Part shown: positions 20,158 through 54,227 of the stretch, piece after piece
How the letters are laid out: every line of letters starts with the position of its first letter
Numbering within the stretch: the first letter of the stretch is position 1
Origin: Aldrovandia affinis
Lineage: Eukaryota > Chordata > Actinopteri > Notacanthiformes > Halosauridae
Assembly: GCA_029706075.1 (NCBI GenBank)
Contig: JAINUG010000026.1
Coordinates: 7,210,674-7,274,673 of the forward strand
Length of the DNA: 64,000 nucleotides
Direction: 5' to 3'
The notes under the pieces: model-generated
The model's database searches: none
What the model saw: the letters and a program-made list of their open reading frames with translations, nothing else
What the model was told of the DNA's origin: nothing
Program-made: the position numbers and the translations under genes

Positions 20158-20659
20158 TTTGGAGAGTATACCTGTGAAGTCTTTTGACCAGCCAGGATTT
20201 GGAAAGAGAGTGTTAGAGTGTTGTTTTTTTTGTGTATGAAATTGGATTGCTTTGAGGACCCCCCTTTGGATTGACTACGCCTACGGACTGGATTGCGGAA
20301 CTGACTTGGATTTTGAATTGGATTACGGACATTGACAACAAGCTAGGATTGTGGACTTTATGTTTTTGTATTCCCCTGAAGACCCCACCCTTTGTTTTGT
20401 GTGTCAGTATTTGTTTATTAAATTATCATTTTGTTTATATTACTGCCTCCTCTGTGTTCTTGAACTTGCCTACGCCCCCTCTGCAAGGTCCGTGAGTGTC
20501 GCCCAACCCCTGGGGACACCACATATGGTGGAGAATGCGGGCAGAGGATAGGCAAGATCACATATAGGCAAGAGGAGGTAGTGCAACTGTGAGCAGGATT
20601 CAGTTTTTTTTGTTTGTGATTTTTGAAAGCGATACTCCATGATGGAAGGGGACTGAACA

Positions 20660-22447
20660 ATGGATCCAGACATGGAGGCTTGGCTGGAGGCAGAGGGTCC
20701 CAAGCATCTGTCTAAAGCACACCAACGGTCCCTCAAAGTGTTTTTCCAGGCAAGTCCAGCCCTCAAATGCTCCTTTTTGACTGGAATGGCGCCCGACGTT
20801 GCTGAGGCCATTGGTGAAATGGAGAAGGTGTTGAGAACCATGAAGGGGCAACAAGAGATGAGAAAAGTCCAAAAGAAGAATGGCCACTCCCGCTCGGTGG
20901 TGCCCCCTAGGGAAAAGGGAAAGATCCCAGGTAGGCCACAAAAGCAGCATACTAGTGGAGTGGAAAAATGTGCTGGTTTAGAGGCAGAGTTGGGAGAGGC
21001 GCAAGCATTCATCAAGGGCCAAGAGGAAGTGATCCAAAAACTGGAGAAATTGTGTGGTGACCAGAAGGAAAACCTGGTGAAGAACCAGAGGTGGGCGGCC
21101 ATGGTTGAAGACAGATGGCGAGTCACCCTCCAGGAGGTTCATGAGCTGAAGAATGTCCAGTCTGAGCTGTACAGGACAAAAGCTGAGTTGGGGACCTCGG
21201 AGGAGCGCCATCTGGTGGCCGTTGGGAGATTGCTGCAGGAGCACACTGACTCGCTGAGAGTGCTGGGAATCATGGCTGGGGACCTGGAGAAGGACAAAGC
21301 ATCCCTTGTCGATGAAGTGAGACAGGTAGAGGCCCACAACCTGGCGCTCGAAGAGAAGGTGAGAAACCTAAACAGGATGTTGGAGGACGAGCATCTGCAG
21401 GGTCTGAACATTCAGAAAGCCCAGAAACAGGCTAAAGAGGAATATGCCAGGGCCTTGGGGGATGTACAGACCAGGCTCGCCCAGAAGGAGGCGGAGCTAA
21501 AGAGAGAAGCGGAGAACCATGCGTCCGAAGCGGAGCAACTCCAGAGCCAAGTGGAGCAGGAGAGCGAGGAAGGCAGGAGCTGGAGGCTCAGCTGGAAGAG
21601 GTGAAGTTTGTTCTAAAAGAACAAGAAGAGAAGATTTTTGTTTTGCAGGAACTGCACCAAACCACCTCTGCAGCCCTCCTGACTGAACAAAAGGAAAATG
21701 AAGAGCTCCCTGTTTTGAAAGAGCAACTGCGTGATTTAAAGCAGAGGCTGGACCAAAAAGAAGCCCAGCAGCGGGCCACGGAGAACTCTTTTTGTGAAGT
21801 CCTGAAGGTAAAAACTGAGACTCTGCTGGACCTACAAGACCGACTGGAAGGGGTGAGTGAAGAGCTGGGATGTGCAAAGTGTATTCCTGTCACCAAAGAC
21901 GCTAGCACGCAGGTGGAGGTCTCGCAGCCAGCGGAGCTGGGAGGAGATGATGACCAGACGTTGGAGTCGGAGCGGGATAGATGGTCCTCAGTCCCACTCG
22001 ACCTGCAGGACCTTGGAAGGGGACTGGAGGAGCAGTATGCTGACGAGGAGCTATGGTTGGACCATGGTGTGGAGGAAAACCTCTTGGCCATGGCTGAGGC
22101 CGGGTGGAACACCCAACCATTTCCTGACCTGGTGAGTCCATCCCCTTCCATAAAGTTTAAAAGGAAAAGACTAGAGGTTCTCACCTGAAGAGAAAGAACG
22201 GCGTGAAAGTAAAGGGAATGACTGTATGAAAAGTTTATGGAAAGGGGATTTGAAGACTAATGTGGAAAATAACTTTAAGGAGAATGCTAACTCTGTTTTG
22301 AAGAGCATGTTTTCCCCGGTTACCAAACCTGACTATCGGGAAGCAGCCTGGAAGGGGCAGAAAAGGCCAAAGAGCGGACCACGGAGTGAGAGACGGCACA
22401 AAGTGCGCTGGTGGAGCCATGGAACGTTGGTGAAGCCCAGAGCCTGA
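20660..22447 (+). pseudogene. Coiled-coil coding region of the LTR element, copy 1 (fossil)
   Basis: Starts after the primer-binding site at MDPDMEAWLEAEGPKHLSKA. A short N-terminal region is followed by long heptad-rich helices full of E, K, Q and L (for example ELGEAQAFIKGQEEVIQKLE and AQKEAELKREAENHASEAEQ), then an acidic part and a basic Ser/Lys/Arg-rich C-terminus. No zinc knuckle, protease or polymerase motif is visible. Its position suggests a gag-like or captured structural role, but that is inference. Broken, with about two or three breaks. Confidence 0.6.
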
Positions 22448-25831: not shown

Positions 25832-28186
25832 ATGTTTTTGTATTCCCCTGAAGACCCCACCCTTTGTTTTGTGTGTCAGTATTTGTTTATTAAATTATCA
25901 TTTTGTTTATATTACTGCCTCCTCTGTGTTCTTGAACTTGCCTACGCCCCCTCTGCAAGGTCCGTGAGTGTCGCCCAACCCCTGGGGACACCACATATGG
26001 TGGAGAATGCGGGCAGAGGATAGGCAAGATCACATATAGGCAAGAGGAGGTAGTGCAACTGTGAGCAGGATTCAGTTTTTTTTGTTTGTGATTTTTGAAA
26101 GCGATACTCCATGATGGAAGGGGACTGAACAATGGATCCAGACATGGAGGCTTGGCTGGAGGCAGAGGGTCCCAAGCATCTGTCTAAAGCACACCAACGG
26201 TCCCTCAAAGTGTTTTTCCAGGCAAGTCCAGCCCTCAAATGCTCCTTTTTGACTGGAATGGCGCCCGGCGTTGCTGAGGCCATTGGTGAAATGGAGAAGG
26301 TGTTGAGAACCATGAAGGGGCAACAAGAGATGAGAAAAGTCCAAAAGAAGAATGGCCACTCCCGCTCGGTGGTGCCCCCTAGGGAAAAGGAAAGATCCCA
26401 GGTAGGCCACAAAAGCAGCATACTAGTGGAGTGGAAAAATGTGCTGGTTTAGAGGCAGAGTTGGGAGAGGCGCAAGCATTCATCAAGGGCCAAGAGGAAG
26501 TGATCCAAAAACTGGAGAAATTGTGTGGTGACCAGAAGGAAAACCTGGTGAAGAACCAGAGGTGGGCGGCCATGGTTGAAGACAGATGGCGAGTCACCCT
26601 CCAGGAGGTTCATGAGCTGAAGAATGTCCAGTCTGAGCTGTACAGGACAAAAGCTGAGTTGGGGACCTCGGAGGAGCGCCATCTGGTGGCCGTTGGGAGA
26701 TTGCTGCAGGAGCACACTGACTCGCTGAGAGTGCTGGGAATCATGGCTGGGGACCTGGAGAAGGACAAAGCATCCCTTGTCGATGAAGTGAGACAGGTAG
26801 AGGCCCACAACCTGGCGCTCGAAGAGAAGGTGAGAAACCTAAACAGGATGTTGGAGGACGAGCATCTGCAGGGTCTGAACATTCAGAAAGCCCAGAAACA
26901 GGCTAAAGAGGAATATGCCAGGGCCTTGGGGGATGTACAGACCAGGCTCGCCCAGAAGGAGGCGGAGCTAAAGAGAGAAGCGGAGAACCATGCGTCCGAA
27001 GCGGAGCAACTCCAGAGCCAAGTGGAGCAGGAGAGCGAGGGAAGGCAGGAGCTGGAGGCTCAGCTGGAAGAGGTGAAGTTTGTTCTAAAAGAACAAGAAG
27101 AGAAGATTTTTGTTTTGCAGGAACTGCACCAAACCACCTCTGCAGCCCTCCTGACTGAACAAAAGGAAAATGAAGAGCTCCCTGTTTTGAAAGAGCAACT
27201 GCGTGATTTAAAGCAGAGGCTGGACCAAAAAGAAGCCCAGCAGCGGGCCACGGAGAACTCTTTTTGTGAAGTCCTGAAGGTAAAAACTGAGACTCTGCTG
27301 GACCTACAAGACCGACTGGAAGGGGTGAGTGAAGAGCTGGGATGTGCAAAGTGTATTCCTGTCACCAAAGACGCTAGCACGCAGGTGGAGGTCTCGCAGC
27401 CAGCGGAGCTGGGAGGAGATGATGACCAGACGTTGGAGTCGGAGCGGGATAGATGGTCCTCAGTCCCACTCGACCTGCAGGACCTTGGAAGGGGACTGGA
27501 GGAGCAGTATGCTGACGAGGAGCTATGGTTGGACCATGGTGTGGAGGAAAACCTCTTGGCCATGGCTGAGGCCGGGTGGAACACCCAACCATTTCCTGAC
27601 CTGGTGAGTCCATCCCCTTCCATAAAGTTTAAAAGGGAAAAGACTAGAGGTTCTCACCTGAAGAGAAAGAACGGGCGTGAAAGTAAAGGGAATGACTGTA
27701 TGAAAAGTTTATGGAAAGGGGATTTGAAGACTAATGTGGAAAATAACTTTAAGGAGAATGCTAACTCTGTTTTGAAGAGCATGTTTTCCCCGGTTACCAA
27801 ACCTGACTATCGGGAAGCAGCCTGGAAGGGGCAGAAAAGGCCAAAGAGCGGACCACGGAGTGAGAGACGGCACAAAGTGCGCTGGTGGAGCCATGGAACG
27901 TTGGTGAAGCCCAGAGCCTGAGGGGTGATTGTCCGGTCCATGAAGCACAGACCCAGTACCCACATGTGGCCAGTTGGGGGCAGACATGGTGAGCAACTTG
28001 CGCCACTTACTAATGTCTGTCAGAGGCTGTTTCAGGTGATGAATGGAATCTGGACATTTGATCCCGGCGGAGCACTGCCGGAGTGGACCTGGAGAGGGGG
28101 GCCCTCCTGGTTGGACATAGGCCGCTCAGCCTTCCCGAGGTCAGAGCTGAGGAGGAGGGTGTCGCCCAACCCCTGGGGACACCACA
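25832..28186 (+). mobile_element. LTR element with coiled-coil coding region (copy 2, partial 5' LTR)
   Basis: Arose with the tandem duplication rather than by a second insertion: it carries only the last 164 bp of the 5' LTR (to 25995), then the same TGGTGGAGAATGCGGGC site, body and right end, followed by the same cagt (28187-28190). The coding region stays open for longer here than in copy 1. Fossil of recent origin. Confidence 0.8.
26132..27921 (+). pseudogene. Coiled-coil coding region of the LTR element, copy 2 (fossil)
   Basis: Near-identical to copy 1 and the better preserved of the two; one continuous stretch of 496 codons (26431-27921) covers most of it. Order: helical N-terminus, about 300 residues of coiled coil (for example LEEKVRNLNRMLEDEHLQGL), an acidic linker (STQVEVSQPAELGGDDDQTL), then a basic tail (PKSGPRSERRHKVRWWSHG). 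Similarity to golgin- or myosin-tail-like proteins reflects coiled-coil composition, not proven homology. About one break. Confidence 0.6.
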
Positions 28187-34103: not shown

Positions 34104-35492
34104 TTATGTGGCGAGATATTCCGAATTTTTTAATCGCCCCTGAAACACGGGCTCATCAGGTAATTCAAAGTCTTCAGTTTTGTTAGAACCAGGGAGGCTG
34201 TCAGCAATGCTGTTACTGAAGGAAGCAACCGAGCGATGCAACAACTCACCGGTTTGGACAAACGAACGGCTAACCGTGGACACAGGCTTCACGGCTACGT
34301 CGCTCTCCCCATTTCCTGTATCAACAGTGGTAGACTCAGGAGCGTAAAAAGGTTTCATTAAGTTAATGTGACACAACTGAAACTTCTTCCTTCGATCAGG
34401 AGTATGGACTAAATAATTCAAATTTGACACACAACGATCCACAGTGTAAGGACCGCAATACTTAGCCTGGAATGGGGGACCAAGTATAGGCAACAATGTC
34501 AACACTTGATCACCAGGCTGAAATTTCCGGCTTTCAGCCTTGCCATCATAACGGGATTTCATTTTAGACTGTGCAACAGATAGGTTTTCTTTCATAAACT
34601 CGCACGCTCTATACAGCCTCAGACGGAAGTCATTAACATAGGACAATCAAATGTAATGGACCCCTCACAGTATGTCCAAAGACCAAATTGTTCGTACTAA
34701 AACCAGCGCTTTCCTGCACTACTTCACGAATGGCCAGCAACATCCAGGGCAATCCACTCCCCCAATCACGGGAAAATTCAATACAATAAGACCACAACAT
34801 GGATTTTAAAGTGTGATGAAAACGTTCTAGAACACCTTGACTTTGGGGGTGATACGCGCTCGACAAATTATGTGTGATGTGTCGTTTTTTCAAAAACTGA
34901 GAAAATGCTCGGGAGGTGAAATTTGAGCCTTGATCAGTTTGAATCGTCTTGGCTATGCCGAAGATGAAAGTGCTTTAATGATGTTTTTGGCTTTAATTGC
35001 GTGCAGAGGCAAGGCAGGATATCTAGTGCTTTTGCACATCACAGTCAACAAATATTGATTTCCTCCTTGAGATATTGGAAGGGGGCCAACACAATCCAAA
35101 ATCAGGTAATCAAAAGGATTTTCCTCCATCACAGGGATGGGCTCAAGAGGTGCAGGGCGAATTTTCCTATTCGGTTTACTGGAGACTTGACAAACATGAC
35201 ACGTTTTAATATACACTGAAATGTCACGTTTCAATTTGGGCCAGTAGAATTGACGGAGAACACGGTCGTATATTTTACGGACACCCAAATGCCCAGACGA
35301 ACCAGCATGCGCCACACGCGTTACCTCACCTCTGAATTGTAACGGCAGTACAATTTGCGTGATTTGGACATCGTCTAACAGAGCGGGGTGTAACAGCCAT
35401 TTGCGCAACAGTAAACCGTCCTGCATATGATAACCCGATTCAGTTTTTTCAAGTTCGGCGTCTGAACGAATCATGTCGAATAAAGTAGTCAA
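34104..35492 (-). pseudogene. Integrase region of the Gypsy fossil
   Basis: Domain order on the minus strand: an HHCC-type zinc-binding region (HAGSSGHLGVRKIYDRVLRQ...CHVCQ), the start of the DDE catalytic core (DYLILDCVGPLP), the later core (SSAYHPQSQGVLERFHHTLK, with the conserved Glu) and the C-terminal GPY/F-type domain (FQAKYCGPYTVDRCVSNLNY). Integrase inserts the cDNA copy. The domain set is clear; the fossil is broken. Confidence 0.85.
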
Positions 35493-35513
35493 AGTAGGGT
35501 CAGACTCATTTGG

Positions 35514-36070
35514 CTATGGCTTAATGGGTACATCAGGGGATAGAGTAATCACCTTTACGTCAGAGGATTCACCCTCTGTGAGGATCGTATCCATGACACA
35601 TGGCTGTTCCGCCTCACGCTTGGCCATGGAGCGCGTCAGCACACAGGCTGTGAAAACCTGCGGGTGTCGGCCGGCAACCTCATCCAGCTCCCCAGACGTT
35701 GTCGGCTCGGCTTTCAACCGCAGAGGTGGAGTAATGTCTTTCCAGACAAAACCCTTAACCAGATAATTCCCGAGGATAACTTGCACACCCTCTACAGGTA
35801 GGGATGGTCTCACTCCTACAACGACGTTGCCCTGTATTAGATCAGTACATAGGTGAATTTTATGCAAAGGAACATTCACTGTAGTCATTTCTACGGCATG
35901 AACCATCACGCTTTCCCCAGTAGCAGTCTCATCATCGAAAGGCAAAACACCATCTAAGATGAAGCTCTGTAATGCCCCTGTATCCCGTAACACGCGCACC
36001 GGCTTTCTCTCCTGACACCCCTGCAAAGACACAAAACCGTCAGTAACAAAAGGAGCAAAATCAGGGTCAG
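35514..36070 (-). pseudogene. Retropepsin-like protease region of the Gypsy fossil
   Basis: Contains RVLRDTGALQSFILDGVLPF, the DTGA active-site motif of an aspartic protease, and downstream VILGNYLVKGFVWKDITPPL, the ILG(N/D) flap-side motif. Fossil part of a Gypsy pol gene. Confidence 0.8.
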
Positions 36071-36079
36071 GAACACTGG

Positions 36080-37371
36080 GCCGACCTGGGACGTTTTGTA
36101 TAAAACCAGTGACATGAAGTGTCAGAACGTGGCTGTACTGCCAAAATAGCAGGCTTGGAGAACACAATGGGACATTCCCCTTTCCAATGACCCTTGTTTT
36201 TACATGCATGACAAATTAGATTGCTATCATATTTGCAATTGGTACCAGGGACAGATCTCACAGCGGGAGGGTTGCCATAGCGATTATTTTTCCACTGGTC
36301 AAATGGGCCATTTCCTTTTTGACGGAGACCACTAAAAGTGTGTTTGTGAAGGAGCGCATATTATCGGGCGTAGCAGCAGCTTCTATCGGATTAGACACTG
36401 CGCGCTCGCTGAGATGAGTAGCAATTTGTTCTGGAATCATATTTTTTAACTGTTCTAAAATTATTACATTTCAAAGTTCGTCATACTCAGTCACTTTGGA
36501 CGCTTTACGCCAGTGATCAAATTGAACCATCAGATCTCTCACGAACTCAACGTGGGTCTGCTTATCAGCGTGTTTCAAATTTCTAAATCACTGCCGATAA
36601 ACTTCAGGGACTAATTCGTAGGCCTGCAAAATCGCATTTTTAACACGAGAATGGGACTCGAGTGTGTTGGAATCCAACGCAGTAAAAACCTCTTGGGCCT
36701 TACCTGTCACAACACATTGGAGCAACAGAATCTGATCAGCTTCGGACCAGAGCCTATTTGCAGCAACTCTTTCAAATAGAGTAAAGAAAGTATCCAGATC
36801 TCAGTCATTGAATCCAGGAACCAATTTTAAATGATGCACAACATTCCTACTGCCAGATTAATTGGGCTCATCTATATCACCACCACCAGATAACACAGAT
36901 GAATCTAGCTTTCCAATTTAAACTAACTCCAAGCAGTGAGTTTGGTACGCTTCTGCGTCTTTTTGTTTGCGAACTTCTAATTTCACTTTTTCCTCAGCTA
37001 AAGCAAATTATTTTTCTTTGAGCTTGTCATTGATCCTTGCAATTTACTTTGCGATTTCCAATTTCTTTAATTCTATTTCAGCGAGCTTCACGGCTTCGGA
37101 TTCGACCAGAGTGTCAACTTTAAATAGCCCTCGCTCCACAGCGAGTCCCGACAAATACTCATGAAGATCAGACACGTTAAATTGTTTACTACACAGTGAG
37201 GCAGATGCTGAGTCACCCCAATGCTGAGCAAGCAACAATAATTCCTCCTTAACAAGGAAACATAAATACATTTCTGACGGACGCAACAGAAACTCGTTAA
37301 CACGCAGATTTGTATGTAACTGAGAAAGCCCACGGCTTCGACTAGAATACTAATTAGAATCAGAAGACATT
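36080..37371 (-). pseudogene. gag region of the Gypsy fossil
   Basis: Begins near MSSDSN just after the primer-binding region. Includes EYLSGLAVERGLFKVDTLVE and helix-forming EAVKLAEIELKKLEIAK, and ends with the zinc knuckle CHACKNKGHWKGEC (CX2CX4HX4C) near 36190-36235. Gag forms the particle and binds RNA through the knuckle. Fossil, broken in several places. Confidence 0.75.
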
Positions 37372-44639: not shown

Positions 44640-44797
44640 TGTTCTGTGTGGCTCAGTAGGTAGAGCACGGCGTTGGCAATGCTGAGGTTGTGGGTTCAAT
44701 TCCCACCGGGACCACATGTACTGAAAAATGGATGCATTCACTACTGTAAGTCGCTTTGGACAAAAGCGTCTGCTAAATGGCATATATTATTATATAT
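44640..44797 (+). repeat. tRNA-headed SINE with an L2-like tail
   Basis: A box in tgtggctcagtaggtagagc, B box in ggttgtgggttcaattccca, then tail gtaagtcgctttggacaaaa and gcgtctgctaaatggcatat. The tail is shared in design with the L2 copies, which suggests mobilisation by the L2 reverse transcriptase. Confidence 0.85.
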
Positions 44798-45815: not shown

Positions 45816-48377
45816 GTGTCCAACAATCAAAATTGTTTAAGGTAACTTTTTGAGGGTGAATATTTTAGCACTTTTGTAAAAGCAACACAATATGTCACTA
45901 CAACATTATGTCCTATTTTTTCTTTTATGAAATATACCTTGTAAATAGCTGATCGGGCATTATTATCTTAACTTATCTTAAAGTATGAAAATTTATTCTT
46001 TCTATTTGTTCGTTTTTTCATGCAAGTGAACTATTTTTCAACTAACACACAATCAGTTCTTGAAGCATGTGGAAAGCGAATTGTGTATTGAATGTTATTC
46101 TTTAAATAATCCAAAAGTAGCATACATATTTTCCCTTCAGAAAGTGTACATTTTGTAAGTTTTAAAATGTTTAGTACATCAGCATACACGAGCAGCTTAT
46201 TAGTATATGTTAGGTATGAGAGGCCTCACGCGCAGTGTTTAAGTAATGAACTTTTTGGGAAATATGTACATCGGCTGAATCCCACGGCTACAAATTGCCT
46301 TAACAGTTCAAAGTAGATGCAAGCCTATGAGGCCATGTGAAAACGTTATTATTAAGTAATGCTAAATGCTATGCTGTTTTTCCTTCTCCATTAAATAATC
46401 TTTCAAAATTGAGAATGGATGTCACAATACATTTTTGTAAGCAATGGAAATAACAGTTTACAGGGATGTAAATAAATCTTATCTAAAGGTACTAGAGTTT
46501 GTTTATCAGTCATGTTGGTATGTAGTTACAGTTGAAAGGTAATTATAGTCGTCCTATATCTAGCTAACCTACCCTGCCTACAAGACAAAGTGTGACCACC
46601 CGTGACTGTTCTGGACATGACAGCTCCAGTCCTTGCCTGTTTTGTTTCCTTTCTTCTCTTTGTGCTTTTCAAATATCATTCCTTTTCTTACTTCATGTTA
46701 CCTCCTTTTTTTTAAACCCTTTTGACATTTTTTTGGTACAATAGCTAACACCTCAGGACTTCAGTGGCACGGTGGCAAGCTAGCTAGTTGTCATTGCTAC
46801 AGGGGTTAAAACCAGAAATACTTCCTTGACTGAAACTGAAAGTCATTGGTTTTGGGCCAGGCATTTGCCTATTGATCATTGTATGTTTATACGGCCACTA
46901 CTTTTTAAATACATTTTTATCAAATTTGTCACTGCTGTGTTAGCATTACAGGCAGTGCCAAAACAAACTCTCCATTTCAAAATTAAAGTGTCCATATGTG
47001 TAGTAATTCTTATTGATTCAGAAATGTTTTACATAAATGAATCTGACATTACTGACAAGACAAAGAAAACACAGAAAAGTCCTTTCTATCACACTGGAAT
47101 CCAGCAGTGTGAGGTGAAAGACTTGTTCGAAATTAAGAGAAACCCGAACACAATTTCTGTTAAACCATTTTCTAGGCTACTTTCTAGAGAGAATTTCTTC
47201 ATAGAGAGAATTGATTATCTGACGAGATCTGGGGGTGATGTTTTTAAGGCCCTTTGATACGTTATCTCATGAAAAGAACTAAACATATTTTATTCCCATA
47301 GAATATAAACGATAGCAAAACAACTTCTGTTCATCCTTTTATCACAATACATTTTGCCATATATTTGAATGTAATCATATTTAGCAAATAGCCTACTTAA
47401 GAGTTTCTGTTGAAAATGTATATATATTTGATCCAACACACTACAAATTTTGCAATATGTATGCCAACTTTGAAAAGAAAATGTTTAAAAATAGAAAAAA
47501 TAAAAGATAATTTATGTTAACAAGTCAATCTACTACTGTAATCCATGACTGGTTACACACTGGTGACAACTCTGTTCTCAAAAATGATATGAGATACATG
47601 TAAAATAGTCACTGGCTCATAGGTGAGTCATTTTTTTTAAGAATATATAAAACAGTATTCACGAGTGAATGAAACAGAGTGGAAAAATATGTACTTACAG
47701 TCCACCGTGGCAGGTAAATATAAGTATGATGTGTCAAAAGGTTAAATACAATTCCCTTTGTTCGTACCCCATTTCCCTGATACCTTTATTGTAATGAGCA
47801 AGAGCCACATTGTTGGGGAGAGAGAATCATTTCTGTGATAGCTTTAGCTCATGGTGACAGGTACAATGAATACCAGTGTGCTCTGCTGTTCAGGTTCGAG
47901 GCAATGTGCATTCTCCACAGAGCCTCACGTTCACATCATCGCCTCTCCAATCGCCAGCTGACGTCTCCGTGGGAATGACTGATTGTTGCAGAAATGGAAA
48001 CGACACTCTTTGTTTCCCTCTGAGAATGTGGCGTTTGAAATGCATTTTCCTCACACAATAACATTTCACCATCAAATGTGTGCTGGAATGGGGAAGACTG
48101 CACCCATCAGCGCTCTCAAAGTGAGTGCAACAACCATCACCTTGATTACAGGTACTTTGTTCTTCAGTTGATATTGTCTTTTAACTGAAAGCCGCTTTAC
48201 AATAAGTGTCAAAACTATAGTTGTTTTTCTTTAAACTTTCATCTCCTTGCCATTGAAATAGCAGTATACTTGAAACATTATTTTTGTATGTATGTCAGGT
48301 GTTTACAGGTGACTGCTGTCTCTCTCTTAATATTTAAGTTAATTAGCAAGGTCTTTGTAACAGGAAAATCCTTAATA
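45816..48377. other. Noncoding stretch; one unexplained open frame; possible conserved block
   Basis: Mostly AT-rich. A 143-codon open frame at 46826-47257 (MTETESHWFWARHLPIDHCM at its start) matches nothing I recognise and is probably chance. 47780-48150 is balanced, unique-looking DNA (for example tcgccagctgacgtctccgt) and could be conserved noncoding sequence. Confidence 0.3.
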
Positions 48378-48817
48378 GAGTGGTTCCAAAACTGTGGGAT
48401 CTGGAACCGAGATCTTAGCTAGATCATTTGATTATGAGCTAGCTAATGCTAGCACTACAAGCTACCAGTGTAACGCTAGCACATTACCTGGGTAGGCAAG
48501 CTGGCTAATGCAACAATTTAATTATCAAGCCAGCTAGCTTGCTCATCAGCTAATGAAACCAGAAACATTCAATATCAACATTGACTGCAAAAAGGTTGTG
48601 TTTCATCCGTCACTTCAGACAGTAACTCCTCTCAACTCCTCCCATCTTCAGGTTCTGGAAGTCTGATGGAAATGCAATCAAAAACCAAAATAATAATAAT
48701 AATAAAAATTATAATTATAATTAGTTCAAGTTCCAGATTGTTCCAACAGTTTTTGGAACAAATGGTTCCCATACTAGTCAAGACCAAAAATGAACAAATT
48801 CCCCTGGATAAAATGCG

Positions 48818-48839
48818 GTAGGCATTTTTGAGGAAAAGT
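48818..48839 (+). repeat. Left arm of a 22-bp perfect inverted repeat
   Basis: Begins gtaggcatttttgaggaaaa. Its exact reverse complement lies at 52318-52339. Flanking bases differ, so the match is exactly 22 bp. Confidence 0.95.
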
Positions 48840-49269
48840 ACTTCATGTGTTGTTTCTATATGATTTTTAGGTGCTGAATCCATTTCTGTAGTATAACAAG
48901 CTGTAAAAGTTGTTGTTTAGTCATAAATAATAAAAAACTAAATGGCCTCCAAAACGGTTTTATTCTGTTTATTAAATCCAACCAAAGCAAGAAACAAGCA
49001 AAAAAAGTGGCTGGTACAGTTTAAATCTTAAGCTAATTTAAAAAAAAAAATGCATTCACAGATTCTTCAAGCATGTAAATGATGGAAAACCAGCATGACC
49101 CTGAAAGAGACACATCTAAGTAGTCCGAACGGATTGTCTTCAATACAAAGCAAAAAATAAGCTACACTATTTCCAAACTCTGTGATCAGAAATCTTTCAA
49201 ACAAAATAAATGATCAGTAATATGACTTGCAAAAACACAAAACATCCCACAAGTTACTGATTCATGCAA

Positions 49270-51850
49270 GTATCACTGGACTTTCTACACTTGCAAAATG
49301 CAGTACACGGGTTAGGCTTGCAGCCGCATCAGGCTGTCTGGCATCCAGTGGTGCACGCACAGGTGATTAACTCCTCACAAGCATCTGGAACTGGAGGCAG
49401 TGACATGAGTTGAGGAACGAGCAAATTCTCCTCCATCTTCCAACCCATAGTTTCAGGGGGTGGCAGAACTGGGTGCTGCAAGTGGGCCTGCCTCCAGAAC
49501 AAACCCTGGAAGTGAGAACACTGAATGTGAAAGTAGAGAGAATCTCTGGTTGGTGGTAGTCTCTCTATTGTCATGCCCTTAACAAACATGCTTGACCGAA
49601 CTTCATTGATGTTGTCAGCATTCATTGCACCATAGAATTAGCAGAAAAACACTTATGCATCCCGAATGGTGTGGTCACTAAGTTCAGGACCTTCGCCAAG
49701 CCCCTTAAGTAGATGGTTATGCTCTACAAACACATCCCAGCACATCTTCTTCGAATGTCCAGCAATGTACGAGGCTGAGTCGCTCCTAGTCAGAGCATGG
49801 AAATATGGAAGCAGCTTGAGGACCTGTGCTTCCATCTGCAGCTGTTCCACTATGGCATGAACTGGGATGTACTTTCTTTTCTTTGCTGTCCCTGCCTTCA
49901 TCCAGATTTTTTGGCACGGCATCATGTGGAAGTAAGCGATCAGCAGTACCAAGATATCTGTGTCTCTTGCAGAGACAACAATGCTTGCTGCTCTGCTTCT
50001 AATGCAGTGAAGAACAACTCTTGTGTCTGCTTCTTCATGTTTAGCTTCCAAGCTGTCAGTCTCAATGGTTGTGTCAGAAGCTTCGACCCTCTCATCGTCG
50101 CTGAAGCCACCTGCAGCGACTATGGTCTTGTTAGCTGGTGCTCTCAGAATCAGTTGTTGTGAGATAAAGCGAGCAAGGTCTGCCTTGTTGTCCTCGTGAG
50201 CAATGAAGTTCTGCCACTTTGCAGGAAGAGGCAAATCTCTGCTCTCAACTGGTCTCCTGATTTCCACCGAGCCTCTTCCACGCCGTTTCCGTGTTCCACT
50301 TTTGATTGAGTGCTTGTGGTAATGATCGAAAAGGACATCAATTCGCTGGAACTGTGCTCCACTTTGGAGAACGGTTTCTACAAAGACATCTGCAAGGTCT
50401 CCAAATGTCTTTGCTGCTTGTGGCTTTCCAATAGCAATGACCAGAGCTTGACCATCAATGACAAGCATTGGTTCATCCTGTAGGTCTCTGGCTTCAAGGT
50501 GGTTGGGACATGGAATGTCAGCAGTCAACATCTTAGCAAGTATTGCCTTTGAACCTGAACGAAGCTGCCCATTAACTTCTGCCAAAGACAGAGGTACAAC
50601 AAACAGTTCATGCGTCATAATGTTGTTGAGGTTGACTGGGCATCCTGCTTCATATGCAGCAATGAGGCGCTGTAAGATGTTTCTGTCTGCCTTGACAGTT
50701 TTTGCCTTCCCAGTTATTGGGTCTGACTGTTGCGCTTAAAACAGGGAAGCAAAAGTCAAATACTTGTTCTGTGTCAGTTTGTTTCTGAAAGTGACTCTTC
50801 TCTCCTCAGATGGCAACAGCCTCTCCTCCACAAATGCATCCAGCTGATCTTGCCCTTTCTGTTGAGCTGTCAACAGATCATCTTCAATTTCCTGGGTAGC
50901 CAATGAATAACACATTATTCATTGGCTATTCTTTGTTTGCAATGTTTTGCAGTGTCAGGGGCAGGTTAGCTGAAACTGCACAAGACTGTGAGCAAAGCAT
51001 CTTCATCTTTTGAGTCCCGTTCCATTCTGCCTTTCGTGGTTTCATTGTGGATGAAGTCGTCACCCGTTCCCAGACCAAAAGCAACTCTGGTGTCATGGGC
51101 AAGATGGGATCGGAGGTTGAAAGACAGAGCCCACCTGCTGAGAGCTGAAGATGTCTTTGTGATTCCAATGATGCCTCCTCCCTTTTTGCCAACACCGCCT
51201 AGCCACTCCTGACTCTGGTCTGGGTCCACTTGGTTGAAGCAATGCAAAGAGCGCTTGACTACAAAGTTTCCAGCCTCAAACTCCTTCTTGACAAGCTGTG
51301 GAAGTTGGTGCATCTCATTCAGGTAGATGGTCCCCCAGCGAGCATAGTTGACGTGGTTATACCGCATGAAATAGGGCAACATTCGCTGGAATGCACAAAG
51401 GTGAAGGTCCCAGATTCCATCCCTCTGAGCACGAGTAAACAACAGAACAAACCTGAAGTTTGGGTTGTCGTTGGCTGCAACGTAGGCTTCTGTGACAGCT
51501 TCAAACTCTTTGGAAGCAAACAATGTCACAAGTTATTCTGCAGGGCCGTTCTTTGTCTTGTCCAATAATTCTTTCAGGTCAGGATTCCTGTCTTCCAGGA
51601 AGCTAAGCAGCTGAGGAAAAAGTATCCTCCACATGGATTGGAGAGTGATTTTGTGGGCTCTAATTGCTTTGGTGTAGGACTTTACTGCCATAACTTGCTC
51701 AGCAGGTTTTGGACCAAGTAGGTTGCCTTCAAGCCATGCTTCCAACAGTCCAGATGATTGGATGTGCTTGCCGATGACTACCATGAATTTCATGGCAGTA
51801 TGAAGGCCACCTAATCTGACAATAAGGCATTCAAGATAGTCAGCATTTTC
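49270..51850 (-). pseudogene. Decayed intronless PIN/FEN-like protein gene with Cys-rich tail
   Basis: I recognise a large metazoan family without an established function. Reading on the minus strand, the N-terminal part has LGGLHTAMKFMVVIGKHIQS, the middle has NHVNYARWGTIYLNEMHQLP and FNQVDPDQSQEWLGGVGKKG, followed by TSSALSRWALSFNLRSH. The 322-codon stretch at 49653-50618 holds an acidic set laid out as in FEN/XPG nucleases: VIDGQALV (Asp55), FDHYHKHSIKSGTRKRR (Asp98), HEEADTR (Glu195/196, Asp198) and SARDTDILVLL (Asp219, Asp221). A tail with CACTTGC and CGCKPNPCTAFCKC is Cys-rich. The copy has about six breaks: in-frame stops near 51532, 50737, 49653, 49640 and 49336 and a frame change between 50966 and 50745. 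A nuclease role is inference. Confidence 0.65.
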
Positions 51851-52317
51851 CCATGATGCCGCTTATTTATAGTTATGTGATGCTAAAGATACATCACTGA
51901 TATAAAAAAAACAGCTTCTGTTTCAGGCTGCCTGAGGATGTCTGTGACATCAGCTGGTATGCTAACATTACTAGCTAGTAGCCTAAATAGGCCATAGAGA
52001 ATGTGAAGTTGATGGCACACGCTCTATTCTTCAGTTGTAGCCTATTTTAGTGTCATTCAGTAAGCTTGCCTTAGCATGCAATATCTGATCATATTTTGAT
52101 TTACTTACCTTTATCTCAGGGTAAATTTGATCTGACCTTCCTACACCGAGTTATGGCCATTTGAACGCCCATCCCCCTCAAATCCCCAGACGAAATCTCC
52201 CTCCGGACAATCCATTCTAGCATCGACCAATTATGAAAGACTGGGACCCTTATTTCAATGTTATACAGTGGGTCCTAATTTGGGAGACATTGAACTTTAC
52301 AAAAATGCAGTATAACA

Positions 52318-52339
52318 ACTTTTCCTCAAAAATGCCTAC
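52318..52339 (-). repeat. Right arm of the 22-bp perfect inverted repeat
   Basis: Reads acttttcctcaaaaatgcct on the plus strand. Lies upstream of the PIN/FEN-like gene, 245 bp inside the element's right end. Confidence 0.95.
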
Positions 52340-52592
52340 AGGGTTACAGAGTTTTGAATTTACGGCCCTGACTATACTGTTTTGTGCCATGGAAAAGCAG
52401 CAATACTTTACATTGACATTCACATCAGGCAGATTGAACACTGGACTAGTTATACCCACTGCAAGTGTACATGTTTTGACATGTGTTAAGATAGTTTATT
52501 TCCATATTTGTATTTGGGGTGGATCACAGAAGATGTATTTTCTCATTAAGTGCGTCTTGTGCTCAGGACGTTTGGGAATCACTGCCTTAATG

Positions 52593-54227
52593 TTTTGAAA
52601 TTCGACTGACATAATACAGACAGGAACACATACGTAGATAGGATAACGTGTTTTGTAATAAATCAAAGTTAAATCAAATGACTGCTTCAATCCTCTGAAT
52701 CAGAGGTGTCAGCTATTGATAATTCAAATTTATAATGACAGTACCAAAATAAATCTTTTCTCAAGTCCCTTAAATACCAGGCCAAATGGTAGATTTCTAC
52801 TGGATAGAAACAAAGCTTAAGCTCACAGATTGGATTTTTTTGATTGGCAGCAGAAGAGACCATGGAGTTTATGATTTAATGAGAAAGTAAGTCGTCCTCC
52901 ATGAAGATCCTTTCTCTGTGTCTGCTGTTGATTCTGTAGAATTAGCTTAAGGGATGAATGATTGAGGAATTCCTGTGGGTGATTTGGCAGAGTGAACTGG
53001 TGGAAGGTTGTAAACCACAGAGAAATAGAGCTGCCGGACTGATGGGAGAAGACAGTGATTGATGTGTTGATCCTATATGGAGAGTGAACAGTTGTTCAGC
53101 CTCAAATTGGGCTAAGGCCTACCAGAATTGTCCAAGTAGATTAAACAAGTCGCTTGATCAGTCTGGAAGCCATTGTCAGTCTCTATCTAACCTTAATTAT
53201 TTTTTTCTTTTTCTTTTATTTGACAGTGAAAAAAGAAAATATTTCTTGCCTCCAAGTCTTCAAAGTCTTCATGTAGGAGTGTCACACTGTAAAGATAAAA
53301 CTATTTTAGTTGAGAGTTTATTACATTGATACAATCACTTCTAACTGTTGCAAATGGTCTATAATCAGGACATGAATGGCAAGTTTCATACCCATTATTC
53401 AACTGTTACATTGATTTTCAAATAGTCCAGAGGATTTAAGCATGTGTTCCTAAAGCCTTCGCAAGTGTATAACGCCCTCATTGTGCTCTTAAGACATTCA
53501 TAAGCAAATTCAGTGCTTCATGAAAGATAACATAATACATATTATGTAAAATTATATCATCAACACATGACGTACTTGACTTTAGGTCAGCCTTCTGACC
53601 GCAATTCCTTGACACATACTTATGATTATAAAGATGTTATGTCATGTTAATAATGTGTTATTCATAGCTCATGAAGGGATACATACTTCGTTTTATGGTG
53701 ACAAAGGTCATTATATGTTGGTTCCTATTAGTGTTACATGGAGTCTCACAATCTGGTTTTAGTCACTACTGCAAAAATTTACTGATTAATATTGCACTAC
53801 AAAAGAGTGAGTTGACATTGTAATTTTAATGTAAAATTGTAATTGTATATTTGCCTTTATAAATGATTACACAGAATTGTAAAACATGAATATAGTTTAG
53901 TTTAATCATAACAACTACTGAATGCAGTTAATTGGTTCACTACAGGACCTATATAAAATAAAACTTCAGCCAGACAGAGGAAGGAGAAATAGTTATTTTA
54001 CATATTCTCAAGTGTAGACATGTACTTTTTATACAACAAATGTACTTTGTTGTATAAAAAATGCATAAAATACAACTACTTGTATGTCCTATGCACTTAA
54101 ATATCTCAAAATACATGTTTGTTGGCCTTATAATCATTTATTGCTTTAATTATTTCCCTCTTTGTGTCATTGACTATATTTTTCATTATAGAAAAGAGAA
54201 ACTAGGTAAAGTATGATGGCGTATAAA

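Follow-up and report, generated by a model that had tools for sequence, protein, structure and literature searches.

A FEN/XPG-like nuclease frame as the probable remnant of a transposase in a nested, probably AcademX-type DNA transposon of Aldrovandia affinis

We analysed a stretch of 64,000 nucleotides from the halosaurid fish Aldrovandia affinis (assembly GCA_029706075.1, contig JAINUG010000026.1, positions 7,210,674 to 7,274,673 of the forward strand), which is called the window below, and focused on an open frame of 360 codons on its minus strand (49653-50735) that contains the motifs VIDGQ, FDHYH, HEEADTR and SARDTD. The frame lies between hAT-like transposon ends at 48378 and 52584, and a first-pass annotation had taken it as one intronless gene forming the only cargo directly between those ends. 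The frame is present, but it is just one open stretch of a longer coding region, which is broken and survives in four pieces, and between it and the hAT-like ends there intervenes a DNA transposon, 48775-52374, having its own ends and its own target duplication (Table 1). As argued below, it is very probable that the locus consists of three nested repeats and that the gene represents what is left of a large transposase of the innermost element, which is probably of the AcademX branch of Academ, and not the cargo of a hAT element.

Table 1. Coordinates of the nested repeats and coding remnants in the window
Feature	Position	Strand	Remarks
Outer 8-bp target duplication, left copy	48370..48377	.	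CCTTAATA; hAT-type
Left arm of old hAT-like repeat	48378..48412	.	about 35 bp up to the interruption; inner limit approximate, by eye
Middle repeat, left part	48448..48774	.	site into which the element inserted; outer limit approximate, with some copies maybe starting at about 48410 by eye
3-bp target duplication, left	48772..48774	.	TAC, by eye
Probable Academ-type DNA transposon, internally deleted copy	48775..52374	coding strand -	3600 bp; ends TAGTCAAGACC...GGCCCTGACTA
22-bp perfect subterminal inverted repeat, left arm	48818..48839	.	
C-terminal coding remnant	49329..49637	-	stop within a CXC-type cysteine cluster
Predicted FEN/XPG-like nuclease domain	49653..50735	-	open across 360 codons
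Coding remnant NYARW...DPDQSQEW...GGGIIGIT	50966..51532	-	DPDQSQEW at about the position of the conserved E; at least 150 matches in own genome
Coding remnant adjoining the deletion	51533..51862	-	with GGLH motif
Junction of 1892-bp internal deletion relative to copy L009	51853..51854	.	2-bp overlap AT
22-bp perfect subterminal inverted repeat, right arm	52318..52339	.	
3-bp target duplication, right	52375..52377	.	TAC, by eye
Middle repeat, right part	52378..52402	.	right limit approximate
Right arm of old hAT-like repeat	52403..52584	.	terminus at 52584 shared with other copies; inner limit approximate
Outer 8-bp target duplication, right copy	52585..52592		CCTTAATG; 7/8 identical to the left copy

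The gene-bearing element has termini of the pattern TAGTCA...TGACTA, the limits being set by pairwise alignment and by the edges of the copies, and its terminal inverted repeats are present as TAGTCA.G.CC ends plus the 22-bp subterminal inverted repeat. With the 4207-bp query, 58 match rows were obtained in the fish's own genome, with the best 40 of 165 candidates scored. Twelve of these rows, spread over five loci elsewhere (C33, C2122, C757, C1758 and C2100), cover parts of 48772-52376, and a distant coding relative and the window itself are also among the rows listed. In all three family copies with both ends readable by eye the 3-bp duplications differ, being TAC in the window, TAA in L009 and ATT in L013, while in a further copy (L014) just the right end can be read. 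The longest family copy is L009, with about 5.4 kb and additional upstream coding sequence. The window copy has lost 1892 bp relative to L009, a loss that includes Cys/His pairs (by eye) and two conserved Asp motifs. It is because of this loss of 1.9 kb from the first half that the nuclease appears as a lone cargo, and since the Cys/His region and both Asp motifs are gone and the frames are broken, the window copy could at most move in trans. It is also noted that L013 is left with about 1.3 kb after several internal deletions and keeps both ends and the 3-bp duplication, in the manner of a miniature inverted-repeat transposable element.

The sequence into which the element was inserted is itself repetitive. 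The middle repeat accounts for 44 of the 58 rows listed for the 4207-bp query, with 72-96% identity, and none of the 44 extends past 48778. Moreover, the empty site is preserved elsewhere: in BLAST, six of the nine middle-repeat copies that were fetched (L016, L017, L018, L019, L023 and L024) align across the rejoined flanks, and in the other three (L015, L020 and L022) the joint was not crossed. In the alignment, right ends of the middle repeat (about 48448-52402 in the window) look like GGAAAAGCGGCAT.

The outermost repeat has the ends GAGTGGTTCCAAAACT (left) and CAGTGATTCCCAAACG (right, as reverse complement), which match each other in inverted orientation at 11 of 14 positions (12/16), and the 8-bp duplication described by the first-pass annotation outside these ends is present. 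Such an end pair arose in 1 of 60 mononucleotide shuffles and the real flanks hold one pair, the pair and the thresholds having been picked after the fact. Copies with hAT ends are absent among the matches listed for the 4207-bp query and were found by a separate query, 52403-52640, which gave 40 matches in the own genome, 39 of them non-self (the best 40 of 49 candidates scored). Among those listed, 17 of the 39 non-self matches end at 52583-52585, 5 extend 2-11 bases beyond and 17 end earlier. Because 17 of 39 terminate at this place, 52584 is a genuine repeat terminus. The left end at 48378 has weaker support than the right, because a 131-bp query (48340-48470) against the own genome returned the self-match only and because the scores are low in most copies: of six hAT copies fetched, L065 and L069 have a left end similar to 48378 with scores of 26 and 25 of 60, and the other four score 16-19 of 60; among these four, only L067, which has an 8-bp duplication with a 7/8 match, seems by eye to have the left end. 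The hAT-type ends of the first-pass annotation are hence sound on the right and less so on the left. In its ends, its degenerate 8-bp duplication and its several copies the outermost repeat agrees with the non-autonomous hAT repeats, having no transposase; by contrast, it is here a mere host of nested insertions and does not carry the gene. Since by eye the fetched hAT copies L065, L067 and L069 do not contain the middle repeat, the middle repeat would have entered the hAT-like repeat, and from this we infer the order of the two outer insertions.

One might still consider that the gene is a cargo or helper of a hAT element and is mobilised together with its ends, given that it is enclosed by them and by the 7/8 duplication. 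To this explanation we give next to no credence. In the search of the 4.2 kb against the own genome, which had been proposed as a check in the first-pass annotation, the gene copies are bounded by TAGTC...GACTA with 3-bp duplications and end at positions corresponding to 48775 and 52374, and the non-self rows listed all stay within 48450-52376, i.e., the hAT ends are not reached. Gene copies without the hAT ends, which that annotation itself had named as evidence against a hAT role, therefore exist, and the helper role is abandoned. Conversely, L065, L067 and L069 have less than 300 bp between their hAT ends and hold no gene. The cargo explanation is rejected on the copy ends and on the empty sites in the middle repeat. 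The more general claim that the gene is borne by a transposon holds, the gene sitting in a transposon and probably being part of a transposase-like protein.

The layout of that protein was assembled from overlapping frames of the longer copies and of the relatives. It indicates that the gene corresponds to a single domain within a large transposase-like protein, which has Cys/His pairs first, then a conserved D...D...E region, the FEN/XPG-like nuclease and finally a CXC domain; no single frame among those examined holds the Cys/His pairs, the D..D..E region, the whole nuclease and the CXC domain together. In the relatives, long single frames run from the D..D..E region into the nuclease over 1292, 1164 and 1044 amino acids, and that of L036 stops early in the nuclease. 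In the alignment of the middle region (11 rows), counted over the rows that have a letter at the position in question, DNxD retains its D in 6/6, the second D is conserved in 10/11, the H of GGxH in 9/9 and the E in 9/9. This conserved D..D..E region is a putative RNase H-like transposase core; no Pfam transposase model and no PDB profile matches it. At the other end of the protein, the CXC domain passes the Pfam cut-off in the relative L038 (E 3.2e-5), and in copy L010 the cysteine cluster continues beyond the stop of the window.

The acidic residues of the motifs listed by the first-pass annotation are conserved in the relatives. In an alignment of the nuclease region with 16 rows, of which two are pieces of one locus and several are close relatives, the acidic residues are kept, among rows with a letter, in 13/14 (D94), 15/15 (D137), 14/14 (E235), 14/14 (D237), 14/14 (D258), 14/14 (D260) and 13/13 (D319); the window shows R where G precedes D319 in 12/13 rows. 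We compared this alignment by hhalign with a FEN-type profile of ten proteins (the N-terminal domain of E. coli Pol I, YgdG and eight phage nucleases). The comparison gave E 5.6e-4 with a probability of 29.7%. With other settings, the real score was 29.9 versus a shuffle mean of 13.1 (sd 2.4, max 25.2), none of 200 column shuffles reaching it, and the reversed profile scored 14.1. A four-sequence alignment gave E 0.0058 with a probability of 6.3%. The 16-row alignment pairs EADT with EADD, DTD with DKD, and the stretch past the last acidic cluster with the helix-three-turn-helix (H3TH) region of the FEN proteins, the last in all three comparisons and at the profile level only. The FEN/XPG resemblance proposed by the first-pass annotation is thus borne out at the level of profiles. 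Like the FEN/XPG proteins (Rad2 and the 5'-nuclease of Pol I), and presumably like FEN1, the predicted domain has the order D, D, E-x-D, D-x-D, D and an H3TH-like G-x-G-K-K-T-A stretch; unlike them, it has no Pfam XPG match and is embedded in a transposase-like protein. The FEN/XPG-like assignment may be called well supported and not proved, because the Pfam XPG models found no match in the 16 members (the five genome-wide XPG_I matches sit at other places) and PDB sequence searches gave nothing significant. No prokaryotic or viral relatives were confirmed with the short patterns used. A PIN/FEN fold and catalysis would be expected.

That the domain is a generic RNase domain of the PIN/NYN type, and not FEN/XPG-like, is the reading that the top PDB profile match would suggest, a YacP protein with a non-significant E of 0.18, which we take to be of the PIN/NYN type. 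We consider it rather unlikely. The alignment with the FEN proteins spans EADT/EADD, DTD/DKD and also G-x-G-K-K-T-A / G-x-G-x-K-T-A, the last being a FEN/XPG trait.

The predicted FEN/XPG-like nuclease is in many cases accompanied by the middle domain. In the own genome there are at least 114 nuclease matches (the best 113 of 579 candidates scored) and at least 150 middle-domain matches (the best 150 of 271 candidates scored). At least 42 of the 114 nuclease matches listed have a middle-domain match less than 4 kb upstream on the same strand, where 0.03 would be expected, and the median gap among the matches listed is 392 bp, i.e., the two domains are coupled. For the pair L037/L038, dN/dS, the ratio of the nonsynonymous to the synonymous substitution rate, came to 0.20-0.21 for the D..D..E half and to 0.20 for the nuclease half, and both halves are under purifying selection in this one pair. 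In addition, at least one group of nuclease matches has about 30% identity (query about 14-353), e.g., C1769:282743-283747 and C1825:358675-359679, and many of this group show a single in-frame TAG, possibly a stop inherited in one family.

The frame could also be taken for a domesticated host gene, as its 360 open codons might suggest. This is highly improbable: the frame lies inside transposon ends with the neighbouring frames broken, there are the at least 114 matches in the genome, and in the comparison of the window with L009 dN/dS is 0.61 on 18 differences, where strong constraint is not evident.

The ends of the relatives follow the same rule as those of the family. Of 11 relatives, seven have both ends readable and all seven have 3-bp duplications by eye: TAT in L043 and L038, ATT in L044, TTT or TTTT in L049, CTA in L050 and L052, and TTA in L037. 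In L041, L045 and L051 the right end only is readable, and in L046 the left end only. The relatives' ends are TAGTC, TAGTG or TAGGC, with perfect terminal inverted repeats of 12-17 bp in L038, L043, L049 and L052.

Academ elements carry an XPG nuclease, and 3-bp duplications are made by CACTA, Harbinger and further superfamilies. The ends TAGTG...CACTA of L052 are reversed CACTA ends. CACTA, Harbinger and the other superfamilies with 3-bp duplications were tried as names and set aside, there being no match to a Pfam transposase model. In the literature on the Academ superfamily, the best matches of our search contained no mention of XPG. In a passage of PMC10045372, AcademX is described with duplications of 3 or 4 bp and AcademH with 9 or 10 bp, seemingly tied to an encoded nuclease and helicase, respectively in that order of mention. 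Academ is counted among the superfamilies with a DDD/E transposase (PMC9587614, in excerpt), the curated mean length of bivalve Academ is 5565 bp (PMC10294476, in excerpt), and Academ is present in zebrafish, medaka and stickleback (PMC4746887, in excerpt). As far as these excerpts go, the element agrees with Academ and AcademX in its 3-bp duplications, found in 3/3 family copies and 7/7 relatives with readable ends, in the nuclease domain predicted in the protein by profile and residues, and in the approximately 5.4 kb of the longest copy, and it differs in that the window copy is internally deleted. Terminal inverted repeats, a further trait of Academ, are likewise present in the element. 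With AcademH, as described in that passage of PMC10045372, it would share the superfamily, whereas AcademH has 9-10 bp duplications and a helicase; no helicase Pfam match was found in the element or in the proteins of the relatives scanned. We thus assign the element to the AcademX branch of Academ, a known kind, as probable, and the feature in the window is a nested, internally deleted, broken copy of what is probably an AcademX transposon. The suggestion of the first-pass annotation that the gene may be an unrecognised kind of transposase is right insofar as the protein appears transposase-like, but it is too strong, since AcademX, as excerpted, fits both the 3-bp duplications and the nuclease.

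Several observations weigh against the interpretation of the gene as a transposase remnant of an AcademX-type element. The Academ filing is only probable because the comparison was made with published descriptions, the name being derived from them, and not with a reference Academ sequence; no Academ-named model matched. Of the copies, L011 is without the terminal TAG and L010 without the right end. In the nuclease alignment, L035 carries Y instead of the first Asp, and in the column of the second Asp L039 shows R, at the point where its frame starts. The hhalign probability is modest (29.7%, falling to 8.7% with other settings and to the 6.3% of the four-sequence set), and the FEN comparisons cover the nuclease region in its second half only. 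The XPG, PIN and transposase models of Pfam are all without a match, as is the Cys/His region with any Pfam model (L009 and L040), and PDB searches with the middle region and with single sequences gave nothing relevant. DUF6589 (PF20231) matched below the cut-off in 5/11 members (best E 0.0072), with no match in the genome-wide search and none in the control genomes. Lastly, the young within-family copies have dN/dS of 0.61-0.90, with L009 versus L010 at 1.9 on seven differences; such high values are expected for decaying copies. Regarding names, DUF6589 as a firm one was rejected on its sub-threshold matches and zero genome-wide ones, and in the literature searched the sole mention of PF20231/DUF6589 is unrelated to the subject.

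It could be asked whether the element belongs to a superfamily distinct from Academ that shares the 3-bp duplications and the nuclease by chance, with which the lack of a Pfam transposase match and the comparison by description would be compatible. We regard this as quite improbable, in view of the agreement of the duplication length, the nuclease and the length of about 5.5 kb with the excerpted descriptions of AcademX and Academ.

Taking the AcademX-type reading, the history of the locus and the working of the protein may be pictured as follows. An old hAT-like non-autonomous repeat (48378...52584) would have been entered by the middle repeat (about 48448...52402). The middle repeat was in turn entered by the DNA transposon (48775-52374), which made the TAC duplication of 3 bp. 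During transposition, the element ends would be bound by the Cys/His region and the CXC domain; the DDE-type core would link the 3' ends to target DNA at positions staggered by 3 bp; and branched or flapped intermediates at the ends would be cut by the FEN/XPG-like domain, either during excision or after the joining. Both the catalysis and the order of the steps in this mechanism are supposed. A tentative extension, which we think possible but less likely than not, is that two DNA-cutting centres in one polypeptide, the DDE-type core and the FEN/XPG-like flap nuclease, are both required for transposition, with the nuclease, and not a hairpin or a second DDE cut, processing the second strand at the element ends. 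Such a two-centre model would be in keeping with the equal constraint seen in the two halves of the only informative pair (dN/dS 0.20-0.21).

The results have several implications. A large protein family of this genome that Pfam does not recognise, with at least 114 nuclease and at least 150 middle-region matches, is suggested to be transposase and not host genes, and for the family members examined the element ends and the duplication rule are supplied. The paired domains offer a system for testing what a flap nuclease does when eukaryotic DNA transposons move. Moreover, internal deletion together with nesting can disguise a fragment of a transposase as the cargo of another element.

Finally, we note some other features of the window. 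Open frames at 20473-22256 and 25945-27918 are duplicates spaced by about 5.5 kb; by eye they are near-identical and resemble coiled coils, and the two frames scanned gave no Pfam match. Retroelement remnants lie at 34107-36215 on the minus strand, where 2/3 frames match integrase domains (Integrase_p58_C and Integrase_H2C2), and a fragment of a Tc3-like transposase (HTH_Tnp_Tc3_2, E 3.9e-17) lies at 3-566 on the minus strand. At 44641-44713 on the plus strand, ARAGORN predicts a tRNA-Ala (GGC), which may be a gene or a tRNA-derived repeat.

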